From Stygiolobus caldivivus (lineage in GTDB: Archaea > Thermoproteota > Thermoprotei_A > Sulfolobales > Sulfolobaceae): 64,000 nucleotides of DNA. Positions 14,227 to 15,553 of this stretch are shown piece by piece (positions within the stretch are counted from its first letter, which is position 1; every line of letters starts with the position of its first letter). Where the stretch lies: contig NZ_AP024597.1 of assembly GCF_019704315.1 (NCBI RefSeq), positions 744,001 through 808,000 of the forward strand. Reading direction: 5' to 3'. The notes under the pieces were generated by a model. The model was not told the DNA's origin. It saw only the letters and a list, made by a program, of their open reading frames with translations, and made no database searches. A program made the translations under genes and the position numbers.

Positions 14227-14505
14227 TCAACCTTCATGGACCGAAACTCTAAGCTGGTGGCTCCTAGGGAATTCATCATCAAAAATTCTTTTTAACAGCA
14301 TTTTTAGGTCTTTAAAAGTTACTCTTTCGTAAGTGGCTTTCTTAAACCCACTTTCGACTACCTTAAATGAGTCAGTATCCTCCTTAACTATCTCGACCCA
14401 CCTATCCCCTTTAAAGCTCTCTACCCTTAGGGCCTTACCTACTTCAAGTTTACCTAACTGACCTAAAACTAACTTATCCGCAGACTTTGCCGAAATCCAA
14501 GGCAT
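14227..14505 (-). CDS. Conserved crenarchaeal hypothetical protein, about 92 residues
   Basis: A small, charged, soluble protein with no family I can name. It is basic in the second half (FKKATYERVTFKDLKMLLKRIF) and could be a small nucleic-acid-binding protein, but nothing proves this. An upstream ATG at 14529 would add eight residues. I prefer ATG 14505 because a TATA-like ttaaaag lies about 30 bp before it. It converges on tfs with 1 bp between stops. Confidence 0.6.
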   Translation of the reverse strand: MPWISAKSADKLVLGQLGKLEVGKALRVESFKGDRWVEIVKEDTDSFKVVESGFKKATYERVTFKDLKMLLKRIFDDEFPRSHQLRVSVHEG

Positions 14506-14582
14506 AATCAATATCCTCAGAATTTGCATTAATAGCTTTTAACATAATGGGTTTAGGGGTAGGAGTCCCTACCTTGACGGAT

Positions 14583-14846
14583 AGCTCCCTCATAAGGACA
14601 TTTTATACTTCTAGGTTTTTTAACCTCGGCTGTAAGACCTGGGTCGTAACCTGGGAACCGGGTGCCTTAAACTTGCAGAGAGGGAAACCCTCCGTAACCA
14701 CTCTACCACACGGACATTAGAGAACGGTTCTGATCGGTGGGGCCTCCGCCATGTGTGCGGTTGGTCTGGGAGGCAGGAAATCTCGGTCACGAGGTAGAGA
14801 TACGCCCGTCCGTGAGGGCGGAAGTATTTCACTGTGATTGGGAGCT
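14583..14846 (+). ncRNA. Structured non-coding RNA candidate of about 264 nt, family unassigned
   Basis: A GC-rich island in AT-rich DNA, closed by two long-range perfect helices: 14583-14589 with 14840-14846 and 14605-14611 with 14821-14827. Inside are local hairpins at 14613-14626, 14628-14666, 14680-14692, 14701-14722, 14742-14774, 14782-14793 and 14803-14820. Hairpin two needs a U-G pair that would be A-C on the other strand, which supports the plus strand. A T6 tract follows at 14881-14886. A TATA-like cttttaa lies at 14536-14542. Neither the SRP RNA helix-8 loop nor the RNase P CR-I/CR-V sequences are present. Pairings were found by eye, not by energy calculation. Confidence 0.6.
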
Positions 14847-15040: not shown

Positions 15041-15132
<92 letters not shown>

Positions 15133-15553
15133 CTATACCCCCCACTTAAAATTTAAACTAAAACTCACTTTTAGACCTAGATTAGTTAAGTCAATATATG
15201 TTTAGATAAAATGACGTATACCCAGTTATATTCGACTGGCGTAAAGAGGAAAGACTACTGGTTGGTGAAAGTTATTACTAATGTCGTAGAGGCTGATCAT
15301 TATTAGTATAGATACACCAGATAAGACTAACCTAAATTCGTTGAAACTATTTTGTAACGGCTAAACCACCAGGCTAATAAACATTAGTAGTAATTAATCT
15401 GGAGCTAATTATTTAAAAATAATTAATTTCATACAGTTATTTATTATATTTTATATTTACGTTTTATATTGTTTTTGCTTCAATTAATTTAACGGTCTTT
15501 AGATAGATTTTGGCAAAAGTTTAAAAAGAAACTTAGGTAGATAACTAATCGTA
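15133..15553. other. Gene-poor AT-rich stretch downstream of tRNA-Arg
   Basis: No convincing gene in 421 bp. The only readable ORF with ATG is 15211-15306 (31 codons), with no recognisable family; it may be a remnant or chance. The last 100 bp are very AT-rich and include aaaagtttaaaaag near 15515-15530, about 25-30 bp before the gene at 15554, a plausible promoter. I looked for a repeat of the tRNA 3' end as a mark of integration and saw none. Confidence 0.5.

Follow-up and report, generated by a model that had tools for sequence, protein, structure and literature searches.

A probable SMN-type MITE relic in Stygiolobus caldivivus and the conserved, omegaRNA-related interior of its repeat family

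SMN1 and SMN2 were reportedly described as MITEs of Sulfolobus by Berkner and Lipps in 2007. It is known for the IS200/IS605 family that TnpA, working on the ends of an element, transposes it in trans, and bacteria are reported to have standalone omegaRNA loci as well as PATEs that carry an omegaRNA. SMN1, a MITE of 320 bp in S. islandicus, is moved by the ISC1733 transposase, and its movement has been seen (PMC3718332); SMN2 is related to SMN1 (PMC3839810). The PATEs of Haloquadratum are short IS605-type derivatives with near-terminal palindromes (PMC3119063). The TnpB class of S. islandicus uses a TTTAA TAM, and its right end forms two hairpins that are part of the omegaRNA (PMC10640517).

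The locus compared with these systems is a GC-rich island in the window, which here means the whole stretch of 64,000 nucleotides of S. caldivivus DNA that was analysed. An initial annotation of this DNA had named the island as GC-rich, and GC content reaches 0.58 there in AT-rich surroundings. The island at about 14544-14832 very probably represents a small non-autonomous IS200/IS605 element (MITE/PATE) of the SMN type, preserved as a decayed copy. It lies on the plus strand and belongs to a dispersed repeat of about 290-340 bp. Its borders were placed at about 14544 and 14832, behind TTTTAAC, because the aligned copies share the left flank and both ends. The insertion site lies between a small minus-strand gene and a tRNA-Arg gene, and the element-free junction would be expected to read TTTTAAC directly against TGTGATTGGG. 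The parts of the element are as follows:

14537-14543, plus strand: target TTTTAAC; most aligned copies are preceded by TTTAAC, and the border is good to about 1 nt on either side.
14544-14832, plus strand: the whole element, decayed, from alignment with copies elsewhere; absent in the sister species.
14549-14589, plus strand: left-end stem-loop, with GGG...CCC outside and GGGG/TCCC inside, from the consensus fold of alignment A2.
14622-14645, plus strand: 5' hairpin of the conserved RNA; this copy allows 7 of its 9 pairs, and across the family 7 of 9 show compensatory changes.
14622-14775, plus strand: conserved RNA interior; its homologue is the omegaRNA segment overlapping the tnpB 3' end (models R1 and R2).
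14679-14690, plus strand: 5' arm of the closing helix, which pairs with 14761-14767; several pairs are broken in this copy.
14691-14714, plus strand: hairpin CTCCGT...ACGG(A), from family covariation and the pairing state in the window.
14726-14744, plus strand: hairpin GGTTCT...GGTGGGGCC region; 6 of 6 pairs retained in the window, some as G-U.
14761-14767, plus strand: 3' arm of the closing helix, immediately ahead of the right end.
14771-14832, plus strand: right end with the GGCAGGAAATC block, hairpins at 14781-14800 and 14805-14822 and the terminal TTTCAC; common to tnpB-bearing insertion sequences.

BLASTN with the island stretch matched 15 of 60 relatives, often at several places in a genome. 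With a better-conserved copy as the query, 22 of 31 family genomes were matched; the repeat then occupies seven places in one genome (G012; 87-91% identity, nearly full length) and about two dozen in another (G009; 69-89% identity), many of the shorter matches in this list being the ends of autonomous elements. The aligned copies have in common a TTTAAC left flank, the left-end hairpin, the interior and a right end closing in TTCAC. The window copy carries the TTTAAC-type target and the terminus as TTTTAAC and TTTCAC, with hairpins near both ends. The family has many copies at unrelated sites, and a transposase gene lies inside none of them. Both of its ends match, in like orientation, those of elements that carry a Y1 transposase gene together with tnpB. 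The left ends are 85-99% identical and the right ends 88-98% identical, the latter as matches of 62-78 bp to tnpB 3' ends, and the window copy aligns along both. The left-end hairpin is of the IS200/IS605 type, the left ends of tnpA-tnpB elements match that of the family, and the stem-loop in the window is shorter than in other copies.

Plasmids pHVE14 and pARN4 of S. islandicus also carry copies, at 90% identity to the family query, and another was found in Acidianus tailed spindle virus at KU645528.1 17239-17565. ATSV_D57, annotated on the opposite strand of this viral copy, is probably not a real gene. With a structure-fold model, copies were detected in further families of the same order. 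One of those families includes a genome (G086) with SMN copies of about 74% GC and a tnpB, at two loci (L203 and L211), that is 85-89% identical to the Sulfolobaceae one, probably through horizontal transfer. Three SMN-like loci of another genome (L149, L150 and L194 in G022) have a divergent right-end scaffold (CCAAGAAGCCCC), and the Y1 transposase was undetected there. Exact pattern scans of genome and viral contig collections, which may lack the records nearest to the window genome, gave no match.

The family thus described resembles SMN1 and SMN2 in its length of about 320 bp, its occurrence in Sulfolobales, its dependence on ISC1733 (IS200/IS605) and its presence on conjugative plasmids and viruses; the assignment to SMN1 is a probable one, made by description. 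Unlike SMN1 and SMN2, the window copy has diverged into a relic, and its genome lacks the transposase. In addition, PMC3718332 and PMC3839810 describe neither a conserved RNA nor a link to TnpB guide RNAs. Like PATEs, the family lacks terminal inverted repeats and target duplication, whereas PATEs come from other archaea, were described before omegaRNA was known and in several cases consist of ends only (PMC3119063).

The host genome holds one further full copy (C1:2331270-2331521), one left-end fragment and one right-end fragment. No Y1 transposase was found in it with a search that was positive in 13 of 19 SMN-bearing genomes, and the best of its four TnpB-like matches is 37% identical over 143 aa. 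Given a single further full copy and the lack of both a Y1 transposase and a close TnpB, the window copy is an orphan. It scores 82 bits with the structure model compared to 199 for intact copies. Of its conserved pairs, 27 of 36 can still form, the closing helix is broken and part of the interior is lost. Since the copy is degenerate and the genome lacks both the transposase and a close TnpB, it is most likely an old, immobile fossil, and its function has presumably been lost. Another explanation is that this copy is active or domesticated, being transcribed and either working with a distant host TnpB or regulating the neighbouring gene or tRNA. The retained pairs, a mostly intact right end and the four TnpB-like matches fit this idea, but the broken closing helix, the partial loss of the interior, the low bit score, the merely distant relationship of the host TnpBs and the lack of conservation in the sister species make it very unlikely. 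In that species no match to the family was found, and the intergenic space is much shorter and without the island. Its intergenic flank has diverged and, thus, the exact empty site was not recovered there.

The initial annotation had proposed a structured plus-strand RNA, possibly a new crenarchaeal one, which amounts to a host RNA of the interval from tfs to tRNA-Arg. A structured, plus-strand RNA outside Rfam is indeed present in this family, but it belongs to a MITE copy and not to the host interval. The local hairpins, the GC island and the lack of an Rfam match would suit a host RNA. However, the SMN RNA was found at none of the 19 other Sulfolobaceae tfs loci scanned, the helices said to enclose the island are unconserved, and the copies are dispersed at unrelated sites with common borders. 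The dispersed copies rule out the host RNA as originally worded, and any version of it is extremely improbable. The two enclosing helices are perfect complements as letters (AGCTCCC at 14583-14589 with GGGAGCT at 14840-14846, and ATACTTC at 14605-14611 with GAAGTAT at 14821-14827). As structure they fail: 40% of cells pair on 27 aligned copies (28.6% for the outer helix), which does not exceed the slid controls. The element ends at 14832, short of the 3' arm of the outer helix, and the 3' arm of the inner helix overlaps the right-end hairpin. When the surrounding 400 nt are shuffled, two nested 7-bp helices of such a span arise in 15% of cases, or in 0.2% with both end points taken as given. 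Several of the proposed local hairpins belong to the conserved fold (14623-14631/14637-14644, 14691-14695/14710-14714, 14726-14731/14739-14744, 14781-14788/14793-14800 and 14805-14811/14816-14822). The first reading therefore recognised a real structured RNA outside Rfam, was wrong about its long helices and missed its mobility.

The Rfam search that had been recommended brought no family to its cut-off at the locus; SraG, mir-4869 and sR5 gave weak matches of 12-17 bits, far below the cut-offs. A divergent RNase P or SRP RNA, which the initial annotation had already argued against, would agree with the locus in size and multibranched look only. Neither RF00373 nor RF01857 matches there, and both genes lie elsewhere in the same genome, the RNase P RNA at C1:1919050-1919362 (159 bits) and the SRP RNA at C1:466252-466559 (197 bits), so the chance of this explanation is close to nil.

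The interior of the family is a genuine conserved RNA, with compensatory changes far above shuffled and slid controls. When 12,090 column pairs in 39 interior sequences, with the window genome excluded, were scanned without guidance, one pair (69-163; AU 11, CG 10, GC 7, GU 3) stood far ahead of all others. This pair falls within the helix directly upstream of the GAAGCAGGAAATC block, that is, the closing helix, which has the strongest covariation of the family and differs between two genomes (GAGAGCAAACC/GGTTGCTCT versus GAGGGCGGCC/GGCCGCCCT). The fold was derived from a related alignment, and alignment A3 was fitted to the model. Over the full fold, 86.8% of cells pair, whereas slid controls reach 55% at most; double-sided changes occur in 38 cells compared to 14.9 ± 3.7 in shuffles. 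In a set of 23 sequences, to which other families in the order contribute 16, pairing is 88.8% and double-sided changes number 73 compared to 22 ± 4.1. The plus strand, named in the initial annotation, is favoured because G-U cells outnumber A-C cells 140 to 67. The fold z-score is -1.78 on this strand, mildly beyond the shuffles, and +0.78 on the minus strand. Default RNAalifold found no consensus structure on alignment A1. In the structure of the ISDra2 omegaRNA, the 3' terminus forms a pseudoknot with an upstream segment (PMC10097598). A candidate pseudoknot here, GGACU/AGUUC, pairs in 91% of cells with no covariation, and two other segments pair equally or nearly as well. The fold gives a structure with covariation support to an RNA that is missing from Rfam.

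A sequence-only model of the interior (R1), made without the right end and without the window genome, matches the window with an E value of 4.9e-22. Its non-SMN matches in 134 kb are four tnpB 3' ends only (E 1.9e-4 to 1.3e-3); they lie just 5' of the right end, which is the position of the omegaRNA. A structure model (R2), also made without the window genome, gives the window 81.8 bits (E 4.4e-18), repeats the tnpB matches and adds three loci (L107, L014 and L108), the last of which is a short element with a core near the tnpB form. The sequence match between the interior and the tnpB 3' ends is weak. The closing helix re-forms in the tnpB genes with compensatory changes, such as CAGG/CCTG and CGGG/CCCG. 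Compared with an omegaRNA (reRNA) such as that of SisTnpB1 of S. islandicus (PMC10640517), the family has the same two-hairpin right end, TTTAA TAM (which the TTTTAAC target in the window equals), GAAGCAGGAAATC block, closing helix upstream of that block and homologous sequence upstream. It differs in that no tnpB surrounds the SMN RNA and in that the scaffold is longer, owing to an extra 5' hairpin and extra hairpins within the closing helix. Because the interior model finds tnpB 3' ends where the omegaRNA lies, SMN elements are taken to be protein-free carriers of an enlarged omegaRNA scaffold that TnpB probably uses in trans.

Another possible explanation is that the interior fold was selected as single-stranded DNA for TnpA, its resemblance to the omegaRNA reflecting descent from a tnpB 3' end. 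It is established for the IS200/IS605 family that TnpA acts on single-stranded DNA hairpins, and no close TnpB was found in four SMN-bearing genomes (G022, G024, G028 and G030). On the other hand, known elements need only their terminal hairpins for TnpA, the excess of G-U over A-C cells favours one strand, and the closing helix stands at the same place in tnpB transcripts and covaries there too. We therefore regard selection as single-stranded DNA as unlikely.

For the omegaRNA-carrier reading, we propose the following mechanism. The element would have inserted 3' of its TTTTAAC target. Such elements are known to be moved in trans, as single strands, by TnpA (Y1), which recognises the end hairpins and the TTTAAC and TTCAC cleavage sites. 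The interior is read as an enlarged, structurally conserved form of the omegaRNA, the guide RNA of TnpB, which in the autonomous element overlaps the tnpB 3' end. In an intact copy, a plus-strand transcript running into the right flank would yield a scaffold with its guide RNA. TnpB supplied in trans might then bind the SMN RNA and cut the empty donor site, so that a copy would be retained; homology and conserved structure are what point to such guiding. The four SMN-bearing genomes with no close TnpB, and the lack of covariation in the candidate pseudoknot, speak against it. That SMN elements are widespread, protein-free mobile guide-RNA genes, whose intact copies make a trans-acting omegaRNA with the right flank as guide while a TnpB encoded elsewhere cuts empty donor sites, is a tentative reading with somewhat less than an even chance of being right. 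If true, a MITE gains RNA-guided retention without a nuclease gene of its own, and the plasmid and virus copies could spread by trans-guided retention.

The omegaRNA-carrier reading accounts for the long conserved interior of a protein-free MITE and would offer many natural omegaRNA scaffolds free of tnpB coding constraint. It suggests a link between a MITE known since 2007 and RNA-guided DNA cutting. No link between SMN elements and guide RNAs was found in the literature searched, which covers subscription journals only in part, and an earlier notice is possible. Trans-guided retention of non-autonomous transposons is testable in the genetically tractable S. islandicus. For annotation, caution is advised, as Sulfolobales GC islands like this one can be remnants of transposons and not host RNAs.

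Two neighbours of the element were also noted. The small minus-strand gene at 14227-14529 (about 92-100 aa) is conserved beside tfs in relatives and has no Pfam match; with the element a few dozen bases ahead of its start, the gene may have had its promoter displaced. On the other side, an intron-containing tRNA gene at 15043-15133, left unnamed by ARAGORN, was read as tRNA-Arg(TCT), and ARAGORN calls the same gene in relatives either tRNA-Pyl or tRNA-Arg.
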